Source: Nodosilinea sp. LEGE 06152 (GTDB taxonomy: Bacteria; Cyanobacteriota; Cyanobacteriia; Phormidesmidales; Phormidesmidaceae). From it: a DNA stretch of 64,000 nucleotides. The notes beneath the pieces are model-generated. The model searched no databases and had not been told where the DNA came from. It saw only the letters and a program-made list of their open reading frames with translations. The DNA lies in assembly GCF_015207525.1 (NCBI RefSeq), contig NZ_JADEWR010000011.1, positions 163,462 to 227,461 of the forward strand, given 5' to 3'. This document shows, one piece after another, positions 33,758 to 38,795 of this stretch (positions are counted from its first letter, which is position 1; each line of letters begins with the position of its first letter). Position numbers and translations under genes: made by a program.

Positions 33758-35245
33758 GTGGATGATGCCTCCGCCGCCATTGATTTAGTCATCGTCGACG
33801 ACGATACTGAGACATCGTGCCTCCTGCAGCGGCTGCTGAGCCAGCAAGGGTACCGAATTCGGGTGGCTGAAAGTGGCCAGCAGGCGATCGCGGCCATTTT
33901 GGCGTCTCGGCCGGGTCTGGTTTTGCTCGATTTGCTGCTGCCAGATATGGACGGCTATACCCTCTGCCAGCAGCTCAAGCAAAATCCCCTCACCACCGAA
34001 ATCCCAGTAATTGTGCTGAGTTCTCTGGTAGACTCCATCGACAAGGTCAAAGCCTTTCAGGTTGGAGCGACCGACTACATCACCAAGCCCTTTGCGGTGC
34101 AGGAGGTGCTGGTGCGTGTGCAAAACCAGCTGCGATTGGCCCAGCAGCGGCAGCAGCTCAGCCAGCAAAACGCCCTGCTTACCCAGGAGGTGCACGAGCG
34201 CACCCAGATGGAGCAGGCGCTGATTGCGGTTGAAATGAACTACCGCAGCATATTTGAAAATGCCACGGTAGGCATCTTTAAAGCCTCATCGCAGGGGCAG
34301 TTGCTCAGCGTTAACCCTTCGATGGCGCGCCTCTACGGCTACGAGTCGGCCCAGGAGATGGTGGCTACCGTCGCCGATATCAGCCGTCAAATCTATCTTC
34401 AGCCCAAGCGGCGCGATGAGCTAGTGGTCTACCTCAACCGCTTTGACAAAATCACCGACGCTGAATCGGAGGTGTTTCGCAAAGACGGCACCACTTTTTG
34501 GGTCAGCGAAGACATCTGGAAGGTGTGGGATAAACAGGGCACCTTTTTACATTACGAGGGCATCGTTCACGACATCAGCGAACGTCGCCAGATGGAGACC
34601 GAACTGCGCCAGCAGCGGCAGCAGGCCGATCGCCTGCTGGTCAACATTCTGCCCTACCGCATTGCTCAACGACTGAAGGGCGGTGCCCGCACCATTGCCG
34701 AAAGCCTCGACCAGGTCAGCGTGCTGTTTGCCGACCTGGTTGACTTTACCGCCGCCTCTAGTCAGATGACGCCGCGTCAGCTGGTCAAGATGCTCAACGA
34801 AGTCTTTTCCATGTTCGATCAGCTGGCCGAGTTTCACCGTTTGGAGAAAATCAAGACCATTGGCGATGCCTACATGGTAGCGGGGGGTTTGCCTACTCCT
34901 AACGATGACCATGCCGCTGCGATCGCGCAGTTTGCCCTCGATATTTGTGACGCTATTAAGCAGTTTCAGCGCCCCGATGGCAAAACCTTTCAAATTCGGG
35001 TGGGTATCAACACCGGCCCGGTCGTCGCTGGGGTGATCGGGCGGCGCAAGTTTGCATACGATCTCTGGGGCGACACCGTCAATATCGCCAGCCGCATGGA
35101 AGCAACCGGCGAAGCCCAGCGTATTCAGGTCACCCCAAACCTATACGAGCGGCTAAAAGACCAGTTTCAGTTTGAACAGCGCGGCTACGTGGCGGTTAAG
35201 GGCCGGGGCCAGATGATGACCTACTGGCTGGTAGGGCGGCTGTAA
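33758..35245 (+). CDS. Receiver-PAS-adenylyl cyclase (class III)
   Basis: A 495-residue soluble signalling enzyme. Residues 10-125 are a response-regulator receiver with the acidic pair DDD at 14-16 and phosphoacceptor Asp58 (VLLDLLLPDMDGY) and TKPF. A coiled linker leads to a PAS domain (about 155-285: NYRSIFENATVGIFKASSQG to HYEGIVHDISERRQ). The class III catalytic domain holds FADLVDFTAAS and KTIGDAYMVAGG with the two metal aspartates; Lys in EKIKTIGD and Asp in YDLWGDTVNIASRM are the ATP-selecting residues, so it should make cAMP, not cGMP. The start is GTG at 33758, giving the receiver directly. A histidine kinase partner is not in the window. It precedes the GGDEF gene by 262 bases. Confidence 0.93.
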   Translation: MDDASAAIDLVIVDDDTETSCLLQRLLSQQGYRIRVAESGQQAIAAILASRPGLVLLDLLLPDMDGYTLCQQLKQNPLTTEIPVIVLSSLVDSIDKVKAFQVGATDYITKPFAVQEVLVRVQNQLRLAQQRQQLSQQNALLTQEVHERTQMEQALIAVEMNYRSIFENATVGIFKASSQGQLLSVNPSMARLYGYESAQEMVATVADISRQIYLQPKRRDELVVYLNRFDKITDAESEVFRKDGTTFWVSEDIWKVWDKQGTFLHYEGIVHDISERRQMETELRQQRQQADRLLVNILPYRIAQRLKGGARTIAESLDQVSVLFADLVDFTAASSQMTPRQLVKMLNEVFSMFDQLAEFHRLEKIKTIGDAYMVAGGLPTPNDDHAAAIAQFALDICDAIKQFQRPDGKTFQIRVGINTGPVVAGVIGRRKFAYDLWGDTVNIASRMEATGEAQRIQVTPNLYERLKDQFQFEQRGYVAVKGRGQMMTYWLVGRL

Positions 35246-35507
35246 CCAAGCCGTGGATACGTGTGATTTTGGTACATGTGATAGCGTAATCAAGGTTTAC
35301 ATAAATCGCCTTTCCTGGCGCTTGTTGCGAGGGAGACAATGCCTGCGGGAAGGATAAGGCCAGGGAAAGATTGGGGGTGACCCCAGATCATTCATTAGTT
35401 TGCCCACTTGTTTGACAATGAGCGGTTGGGTTTGCGGTCCAGGGGCGGGGCGGGGTTCGATTCAGTCACGCCAGAGCCTGGTAAGGCTCCGGTAGAGGAT
35501 TGCAGGG

Positions 35508-37526
35508 ATGACGTTACTTCAGCAAGCAACGGTTTTAATTACAGAAGCTGCCCCTCACCAGACAGAGGCCCTGGCCCAGATGCTAGTCGCCGCCAGCTAC
35601 CAGGTGCAGGTGCGCGCCGAAGCAGATCTACTGCCCCAAATATCGCCCCAAACACCGCAACTAGAGCCATGGCCCGACCTCATAATATTGCAGGTCGCTG
35701 GGGCCGACAGCAGCGGCTACCACCTGGGCCAAAAGCTGAAGGCCAACCCTTCCACAGCCGTCATACCGCTGATCTTTGCTGGCAGCTTTAAAGATACTGC
35801 TAGCCGAGAGCGGGTTTTTGCGGCGGGCGGCGTAGACTACTTGGAATCTCCCTTTTTAACAGCAGATGTGTCCGCCCGCGTTGGTCACTGGCTTGAGGTC
35901 GCTACGGCCAAACCCATCCGTCCCTCTTTACTGAAAGACAGCCTGCAGCGCCTGCACAATACCCTCGATCTAGACACCATTTTGCAGACGGCTGTGCAGG
36001 ATGTGCGACAGCAAATCTTGGCCGATCGCGTCATCATTTACCAGTTTGGCCAGAACGGGCGGGGCATGGTGACCCACGAAGCCGTAGTCGATGAGCGCCT
36101 TACCGTGCTGCGCCGCCAGGTAGAAGATGCCTGCTTTGACCAGGAGCACGCGACCAAGTACTGGTCAGGGCGAGTAGGGCAGATCAACGATGTAAAGGCT
36201 TTGGGAAACATCAGTCAGTGCTACCGCGACATGCTGCTGAGCTTCGGTATCCAAGCCAACCTGGTGGCACCCATCATTCACACCCTGCCGGGGCAAAACC
36301 GCTACCTGTGGGGACTAATTATCGTGCACCAGTGCTACCAGCCCCGGCGGTGGCAAACCCATGAGATTGAGCTGCTGCAAGAAATATCGGCCCACCTGGC
36401 GATCGCCATTCAGCAGAGTCGTCTGTTTGAGCAGGTGCGTCACCAGGCTCGCCAGGAAATGCTGCTCAATCACATTCTGGATGAAATTCGCGCCAGTCTG
36501 GATGTGCAGCATATTCTCACCTGCACCGTAGAGCACCTGGGCACGGCCCTTAACCTACGCCAGTGTGGCATTACGCTGCTGCGCCACAACCTGACTAGCC
36601 TGCCCACGCCGTTTGTGGTTACCGTGCAGGCTCCAGCCCTGAGTGAACCTATCGCTCCCTTGGAGATTACTGAAACGCTGCGTCAGCAGCTCATGCTCGA
36701 CAACAACCTGATCGTGCTGCCCTACCGGGTGAACCCACTGCAGATGCGCCCCAACGCTGCTCAGCTGGTGGCCCAGGGCGAAAACACCTACCTGGCTACG
36801 GCCATTCGCATTGACAACCAGGTGCAGGGGGTGTTGTGGGCCTGCCCCGCGCCCAGTCGCCTGGCCAGCATCGACAAAATGAGCCTCTGGGAGCACAGCG
36901 ATCTGAGCCTGGTTGAAGAAGTAGCTATGCAGCTGAGTCAGGCGCTGCAGCAGGCGGCCCTGTACCAGCAACTCCAGGCGGCCAACGACGAACTCCGTCG
37001 GCTGGCCCACCTCGATGGGCTCACCCAAATTGCCAACCGTCGCGAGTTTGACCGCTACCTGGCCCAGGAGTGGCAGCGGCTGCAGCGCGAACAGGGCAGC
37101 CTGGCCCTGGTGCTGGCCGACGTTGATCACTTCAAGGGCTACAACGATACCTACGGCCACCTGGCGGGCGACGACTGCCTGCGATCGATCGCCCGCCTGC
37201 TGGCCCAGGTAACCAAGCGCCCGGCCGATTTAGCCGCTCGCTACGGAGGGGAAGAATTTGCCTTGGTTCTGCCGAATACGACCGCGGCTGGGGCAATCTC
37301 CCTCACCGCAGAAGCCCAAACCTATCTAACCCGACTGGCCATTCCCAACGCAGCCTCGCCCCTGTACGGACAGGTCACGGTCAGCTTTGGCATTGCTGTT
37401 CTTACGCCGGCCCCGGCCCTCTCTACCGAACTTCTGATTCAGCGGGCTGACCAGGCTCTCTACGCCGCCAAGGAGAGCGGCCGCAATAGCTACTGTCTGT
37501 GGTCTGAGGGGATACAATCGACCTAA
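35508..37526 (+). CDS. Pseudo-receiver/GAF/GAF/GGDEF diguanylate cyclase, possible cyanobacteriochrome
   Basis: A 672-residue protein. Residues 8-130 look like a receiver but lack the phosphoacceptor (Gln62 in IILQVAGADSSGYHL), one of the acidic pair, and the Lys of TKP (YLESPF), so it cannot be phosphorylated normally. The first GAF (about 155-310) has the phytochrome-type layout, including Cys209 in DACF and Cys238 in ISQCYRDMLLSFGIQANLVAPI, the two cysteine positions of DXCF cyanobacteriochromes; the usual His after the second Cys is Tyr. A second GAF follows (about 330-495). The GGDEF domain has G580-G-E-E-F584, and an RxxD inhibitory site at 571-574 spaced five residues before it, so c-di-GMP synthesis with feedback inhibition is expected. 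Bilin binding is inference. Confidence 0.88.
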   Translation: MTLLQQATVLITEAAPHQTEALAQMLVAASYQVQVRAEADLLPQISPQTPQLEPWPDLIILQVAGADSSGYHLGQKLKANPSTAVIPLIFAGSFKDTASRERVFAAGGVDYLESPFLTADVSARVGHWLEVATAKPIRPSLLKDSLQRLHNTLDLDTILQTAVQDVRQQILADRVIIYQFGQNGRGMVTHEAVVDERLTVLRRQVEDACFDQEHATKYWSGRVGQINDVKALGNISQCYRDMLLSFGIQANLVAPIIHTLPGQNRYLWGLIIVHQCYQPRRWQTHEIELLQEISAHLAIAIQQSRLFEQVRHQARQEMLLNHILDEIRASLDVQHILTCTVEHLGTALNLRQCGITLLRHNLTSLPTPFVVTVQAPALSEPIAPLEITETLRQQLMLDNNLIVLPYRVNPLQMRPNAAQLVAQGENTYLATAIRIDNQVQGVLWACPAPSRLASIDKMSLWEHSDLSLVEEVAMQLSQALQQAALYQQLQAANDELRRLAHLDGLTQIANRREFDRYLAQEWQRLQREQGSLALVLADVDHFKGYNDTYGHLAGDDCLRSIARLLAQVTKRPADLAARYGGEEFALVLPNTTAAGAISLTAEAQTYLTRLAIPNAASPLYGQVTVSFGIAVLTPAPALSTELLIQRADQALYAAKESGRNSYCLWSEGIQST

Positions 37527-37715
37527 GGGGTTAGCGCCAGTTTGGGTTGAACGAGGACTCGAGGGCTAGAGCAATCTGCACAGGTTGCCGGGGACAAGTC
37601 GAAGGTTTAGACCGTCGAGCTTTTCAACTTGCAAACGTCTCAACCGGCAAACCTAAGCGACAGGTTAGTCTTCCGCTGCCCTCGAACTCGGGTTAGTAAA
37701 CGCTTGATTTAACGT

Positions 37716-38795
37716 ATGGTGATTAGCCTGTCTCCTACCCTACAGCAGCGGCTGCGATCGCCTTTAGCCATTGGCGCTGTAACCTTGCACAGCCGGGTCT
37801 TGCAGTCGCCCCTGTCCGGGGTGACCGATCGCGCCTTTCGCCAGCTGGTGCGCCGCTACGCCCCCACCTCCATGCTCTACACCGAAATGGTGCAGGCCAC
37901 CGGGTTGTGTCACGCCCAGCAGCTCGAAAAGATTATGGACATTGACGCCAGCGAGCAGCCGATCAGCATTCAGCTATTTGACTGTCGGCCTGACTTTATG
38001 GCCGCTGCCGCCCGCAAAGCTGCGGCCGAAGGAGCCCAAACCATCGACATCAACATGGGCTGCCCGGTGAATAAAATCACCAAAAAAGGGGGGGGCTCAT
38101 CGCTGCTGCGCCAGCCCGAAGTCGCCGAGGCGATCGTGCGCACCGTCGCAGCGGCTGTCCCCGTACCCGTCACCGTTAAAACCCGCATTGGTTGGGATGA
38201 CGACCACATCAACGCCATTGACTTTGCCCGCCGTATGGAGGCGGCAGGGGCGCAAATGCTCACCCTGCACGGCCGCACCCGCGATCAGGGCTACCACGGC
38301 CCCGCCCGCTGGGACTGGATCGCCAAGGTCAAGGCAGCGCTGAGCATTCCGGTGATTGCCAATGGCGATATTGTCTCGGTAGAATCGGCGGTGCGCTGCC
38401 TGGAGCAGACCGGGGCCGACGGCGTTATGTGCTCTCGGGGCACCCTGGGCTACCCCTTCTTGGTCGGCGAAATTGATGCTTTTCTCAAAACCGGCACCGT
38501 TCCTGCAGTGCCCACGCCTACAGATAGACTGCGCTGCGCCCGCGAGCACCTGGGCCTGCTGTGGCGGTACAAGGGGCAGAAGGGCATCCACCAGGCTCGC
38601 AAGCATATGGCCTGGTATGTCAAAGGCTTTGAGGGGGCCGCTCCCCTGCGCCGACAGCTCTGCCAAATTGAGACTGTCGAGGCTGGGTATGCGCTGCTCG
38701 ATGGCGCGATCGCTGAGCTAGAAAACGCGATCGTAGCGGTCGAACGCCCCGCGCTCTGGTCGGTTAGATGTAATGAAGTTCTACCCATCGGATAA
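37716..38795 (+). CDS. dus: tRNA-dihydrouridine synthase (DusB-like)
   Basis: This FMN enzyme reduces uridine to dihydrouridine in tRNA. The 359-residue product has the barrel motifs SPLSGVTDRAFRQLV, MLYTEMV, ISIQLFDCRPDFM, TIDINMGCPVNKITKKGGGSSLL with the catalytic Cys, VTVKTRIGWDD, LTLHGRTRDQGYHG, VIANGDI and GVMCSRGTLGYPFLV. The C-terminal helical domain (REHLGLLWRYKGQKGIHQARKHMAWYVKGF) binds tRNA. Which uridine it modifies cannot be read from sequence. It stands alone after the GGDEF gene with a 189-base gap. Confidence 0.95.
   Translation: MVISLSPTLQQRLRSPLAIGAVTLHSRVLQSPLSGVTDRAFRQLVRRYAPTSMLYTEMVQATGLCHAQQLEKIMDIDASEQPISIQLFDCRPDFMAAAARKAAAEGAQTIDINMGCPVNKITKKGGGSSLLRQPEVAEAIVRTVAAAVPVPVTVKTRIGWDDDHINAIDFARRMEAAGAQMLTLHGRTRDQGYHGPARWDWIAKVKAALSIPVIANGDIVSVESAVRCLEQTGADGVMCSRGTLGYPFLVGEIDAFLKTGTVPAVPTPTDRLRCAREHLGLLWRYKGQKGIHQARKHMAWYVKGFEGAAPLRRQLCQIETVEAGYALLDGAIAELENAIVAVERPALWSVRCNEVLPIG

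Follow-up and report, generated by a model that had tools for sequence, protein, structure and literature searches.

The open reading frame at 35,508-37,526 on the forward strand of the analysed window, a 64,000-nucleotide stretch of DNA from Nodosilinea sp. LEGE 06152, raises the question of whether it encodes a diguanylate cyclase controlled by light, and whether the Tyr that stands in place of the usual His after its canonical bilin cysteine gives such a light response an unusual tuning, as a first-pass annotation had proposed. The product of diguanylate cyclases, c-di-GMP, is a biofilm signal. The frame starts with ATG and encodes 672 amino acids arranged as degenerate receiver, GAF1, GAF2 and GGDEF domain, and all features described below lie on the forward strand of the window unless otherwise stated. 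GAF1, the presumed sensor domain, encompasses residues 154-306 (35,967-36,425; Pfam GAF at residues 154-301, E 7.9e-26). GAF2 (residues 331-482; 36,498-36,953; Pfam GAF_3 at residues 333-482, E 9.7e-5, under the cut-off) is without a bilin cysteine motif and gave weak matches only when compared with solved structures, the best at E 0.0011. A helical linker (36,954-37,004) leads from GAF2 to the GGDEF domain (residues 500-661; 37,005-37,490; Pfam GGDEF at residues 500-660, E 3.2e-51), which keeps a GGEEF active-site motif (residues 580-584; 37,245-37,259), the conserved metal/GTP residues and an RxxD inhibitory site (R571-P-A-D574; 37,218-37,229). Five residues separate RPAD from GGEEF, as in PleD-type inhibitory sites. 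The intact active-site motif and inhibitory site of the first-pass annotation are therefore both present, and by its sequence the domain has the characteristics of an active diguanylate cyclase. An antisense open reading frame of 201 residues (36,555-37,160), which overlaps GAF2 and the GGDEF domain, was regarded as mechanical and bears no sign of being a gene.

GAF1 was compared with solved cyanobacteriochromes and matched them down to an E value of 4.8e-36, indicating homology and not a chance motif. Its two predicted bilin cysteines, Cys209 in the DXCF motif (D207-A-C209-F210; 36,126-36,137) and the canonical Cys238, which is followed by Y239-R240-D241 (CYRD, residues 238-241; 36,219-36,230), were found exactly as first reported and have their counterparts, DXCF and canonical respectively, in the aligned sequence of TePixJ, the blue/green DXCF prototype (PDB 3vv4, 4glq). 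The alignment with TePixJ extends to residues D, F, GR and ANLV, whereas TePixJ differs in having Cys-His, a chemotaxis-receptor output and a distant tree position. The two cysteines of GAF1 are 29 residues apart, a minority spacing that is also found in other genomes and agrees with an expected spacing of about 28. In a maximum-likelihood tree of 114 GAF domains, GAF1 grouped with the DXCF domains, outside the red/green and NpR3784 groups and apart from TePixJ; it shares a starred clade of 16 rows (96/82) with the Thermosynechococcus SesA domain and, inside this clade, falls in a subclade of 13 rows (91/83). When two trait columns were dropped, the query and SesA were again placed together in a 13-row grouping by a quick tree. 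A strict clade of the query and SesA is absent from the tree and was not rejected either (AU p 0.349). Two other origins were considered: descent from a red/green domain that regained the DXCF cysteine was rejected by the tree, and descent within the NpR3784 lineage, whose derivative miRFP670nano is also Cys-Tyr, was rejected on the basis of the separation in the tree and of the missing DXCF cysteine of NpR3784. Homology, cysteine alignment and tree position thus identify GAF1 as a true member of the DXCF cyanobacteriochrome domains, in agreement with the first-pass annotation. The host genome encodes a PcyA-family enzyme (Fe_bilin_red hit, 261 bits), in keeping with a host that would make phycocyanobilin. 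An AlphaFold model meant to place both cysteines relative to a bilin-sized pocket, calculated from four near-identical alignment rows, had an unusably low pLDDT of 37, and a scan of viral contigs for further alignment rows found none. A five-residue insertion (TLPGQ here; 36,282-36,296) following ANLVAPIIH is common to the orthologues and absent from SesA and TePixJ; RcaE/CcaS-type chains also have extra residues at this site.

The frequency of Tyr after the canonical cysteine was assessed at the level of whole genomes, because the GAF domains collected by similarity (49 DXCF rows with Cys-Tyr, the query family included, and 61 with Cys-His) form a biased sample. A specific DNA pattern, DXCF...GR... 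followed by Cys-Tyr or Cys-His, was searched in one set of 194 cyanobacterial genomes and a genome was counted when it contained at least one instance, yielding 99 genomes with DXCF and Cys-Tyr and 153 with DXCF and Cys-His; the reversed-pattern controls gave two hits and none. A first pattern with a shorter motif had given mere noise, since its matches for the most part did not exceed those of the reversed control. On the GAF tree, the residue after the canonical cysteine requires at least 14 changes between His and Tyr. A Thermosynechococcus protein of 772 residues (L248) with CBS, PAS, GAF and GGDEF domains, a DXCF Cys499, a canonical Cys527 and an RxxD site at 676 also has Cys-Tyr, as Cys527-Tyr528-Arg529. 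We take this protein to be SesA/Tlr0924, from the match at R676, the domain and motif matches and the Cys499 and Cys527 of Tlr0924, so that the textbook blue-light cyclase is itself presumably Cys-Tyr. Cys-Tyr as a rarity was rejected; it is a common natural state of DXCF domains, and since His and Tyr interchange frequently among DXCF sensors, an unusual colour response should not be read from Cys-Tyr by itself. Of the earlier interpretation, control of a diguanylate cyclase by a DXCF cyanobacteriochrome was thus retained, with good support from homology, motif conservation, tree position and the intact GGDEF domain, and unusual tuning was abandoned; this correction is the more useful outcome of the analysis.

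SesA is activated by blue light and inactivated by green light, binds phycoviolobilin (PMC8846402) and is subject to product inhibition through its RxxD site at R676 (PMC5871770), and the title of Rockwell 2008 (a reference in PMC10151467) gives the second GAF cysteine as needed for the blue/green switching of Tlr0924. The query shares with SesA a DXCF GAF with Cys-Tyr-Arg, the GGEEF motif, an RxxD inhibitory site at the same place as R676, membership of the same tree clade, and a linker and GGDEF domain that align without gaps (46% identity over 203 residues, including the linker that joins GAF and GGDEF in SesA); identity between GAF1 and the SesA GAF is 38% over 170 residues. However, SesA has CBS and PAS domains before its GAF and the GAF is joined directly to GGDEF, whereas the query has a dead receiver before GAF1 and, after it, the non-bilin GAF2, which stands beside GGDEF where SesA has its sensor. 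The spacing of the two cysteines is 29 residues in the query and 28 in SesA, and GAF1 has the five-residue loop insertion. With Cys-Tyr, GGEEF and RxxD present, and with neither CBS/PAS domains before the GAF nor a direct cyanobacteriochrome GAF-GGDEF join, the query protein is, as judged from its domain organisation, not a SesA orthologue. A group of Thermosynechococcus proteins with the order receiver-like-GAF-GGDEF-EAL (L122-L129) likewise has a DXCF GAF with Cys-Tyr-Arg and an N terminus that by eye resembles a degenerate receiver, and differs from the query in its GGDEF-EAL output, in being without GAF2 and in belonging to another tree clade; a Pfam search of this N terminus detected no receiver at E 0.01. 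Four proteins of this group were read through, and in one of them (L125) GSDEF stands in place of GGDEF. SesC was considered as the identity of the group and dropped, as the sesC construct deletes approximately 3400 bp within the ORF (PMC9090330), exceeding the ORFs of L122-L129.

The N-terminal receiver-like domain, which is missing from the first-pass annotation, encompasses residues 5-128 (35,520-35,891; Pfam Response_reg, 24.2 bits, E 3.9e-5, under the cut-off) and resembles the PhoB/PleD receivers in sequence. Q62 replaces the phospho-acceptor Asp, T12 and E13 replace the acidic pair, and E113 replaces the conserved Lys, so that none of the residues of a phosphorylatable receiver of the PleD type is in place. 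Position 62 is Q or P across the orthologues and Asp in none of those compared. PleD-type receiver-GGDEF response regulators share with the query a receiver-like N terminus and a GGEEF/RxxD cyclase; however, a phospho-controlled regulator of this type was rejected, and phosphorylation is not the input, because the phospho-acceptor Asp is absent from the query and all orthologues compared.

Orthologues were found in eight of the 28 genomes of the genus, the host genome included, a count that depends on the genome set sampled; beyond these eight, nothing more than 50% identical over GAF1 was found among 390 genomes drawn across the class. The gene is an accessory one, present in part of one genus (Nodosilinea). 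Two of the loci (L011 and L040) give the same protein, and seven orthologous proteins (query included) were aligned, in which D207, C209, F210, C238, Y239 and R240 are invariant down to an overall identity of 68% and the DXCF motif varies at position X only. Invariant columns make up 61% of GAF1 and 26% of the receiver. Where computable, dN/dS ranged from 0.05-0.11 in GGDEF through 0.07-0.17 in GAF1 and 0.11-0.27 in GAF2 to 0.12-0.29 in the receiver, the low values of a working protein under purifying selection, with the receiver evolving fastest.

Taken together, the protein is likely to be a SesA-like, light-gated (blue-activated) and product-inhibited diguanylate cyclase, which is the simplest prediction because the sensor motifs and the gapless linker and GGDEF domain are shared with SesA. 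Domains of the DXCF type typically have their second cysteine bonded to C10 in a blue-absorbing dark state and form a green-absorbing photoproduct (PMC11284453). GAF1 would bind phycocyanobilin via Cys238, probably converting the bound bilin to phycoviolobilin, and in the dark state Cys209 would add to C10 of the bilin to give a blue-absorbing form; blue light would isomerise the bilin, upon which Cys209 would be released and a teal-to-green-absorbing form would arise. The signal would be relayed by the GAF helices, and then by the non-bilin GAF2 and the coiled linker, to the GGDEF dimer, which would make c-di-GMP, most likely more of it under blue light, and c-di-GMP at RPAD would then switch the enzyme off. 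The receiver-like domain is not phosphorylatable in the usual way and probably serves for dimerisation or docking. If this is right, a genus of thin filamentous cyanobacteria that has received little study gains a blue-gated c-di-GMP synthase, and optogenetics gains a natural sensor in which an additional GAF acts as relay.

The sign and strength of the regulation are uncertain because of GAF2, the dead receiver, the longer Cys-Cys spacing and the loop insertion, and the sign in particular may differ from that of SesA, in which no GAF2 intervenes between sensor and cyclase. With domains lying between or before the modules in this way, GAF1 could be photoactive and yet act on the cyclase in the opposite sense or through another colour pair, for example as a blue/orange sensor or with highest activity in green or teal light. 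Thermosynechococcus SesB and SesC are examples of related sensors coupled to other outputs (PMC5871770); however, the closest characterised output arrangement is that of the blue-activated SesA, to which the linker and GGDEF domain align gap-free, and we regard a different sign or colour pair as unlikely. A decayed cyanobacteriochrome, in which GAF1 no longer binds bilin and a light-blind cyclase takes its input from GAF2 or from the receiver-like part, would be in keeping with the lost receiver active site and with the apparent loss of the gene in a sister clade, but the invariance of all bilin motif residues, the far higher proportion of invariant columns in GAF1 than in the receiver and the low dN/dS make such decay very improbable.

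The remaining alternatives retain light as an input through GAF1 and add another through GAF2, and they draw on the neighbourhood of the gene. The upstream neighbour (33,758-35,245), found in 26 of the 28 genomes of the genus, encodes a receiver-PAS-class III cyclase with a receiver that is intact by eye; it is probably an adenylate cyclase, since Lys and Asp occupy the nucleotide-selecting positions in the ATP-selecting combination, a specificity read from the sequence and from family knowledge. Downstream lies a probable tRNA-dihydrouridine synthase gene (37,716-38,795), the function again being read from the sequence. The order cyclase, diguanylate cyclase gene, synthase is the same in all eight carrier genomes, while in eight genomes without the diguanylate cyclase gene the slot corresponding to 35,246-37,715 measures approximately 18-24 bases between the two neighbours. 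On a tree of the neighbouring cyclase, at least two presence changes are needed for the diguanylate cyclase gene, such as a gain plus a loss. It is quite doubtful, though conceivable, that the dead receiver and the non-bilin GAF2 have made of a SesA-like blue switch a two-input enzyme which receives light via GAF1 and a second signal via GAF2, its gene lying beside that of an adenylate cyclase under phosphorylation control, with cAMP and c-di-GMP set from one locus. The specific form in which GAF2 binds a small ligand, such as cAMP from the adjacent cyclase, is favoured by the fixed gene order in eight of eight carrier genomes, but GAF2 shows no cyclic-nucleotide motif recognisable by eye and has no informative solved relative, and with 262 bases between the two genes their co-transcription is no more than a possibility; we consider this form highly improbable. 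In a homologue of the downstream dihydrouridine synthase gene from the same genus (G038:C564:9471-10484) an in-frame TGA was observed, which may reflect a pseudogene or a sequencing error.
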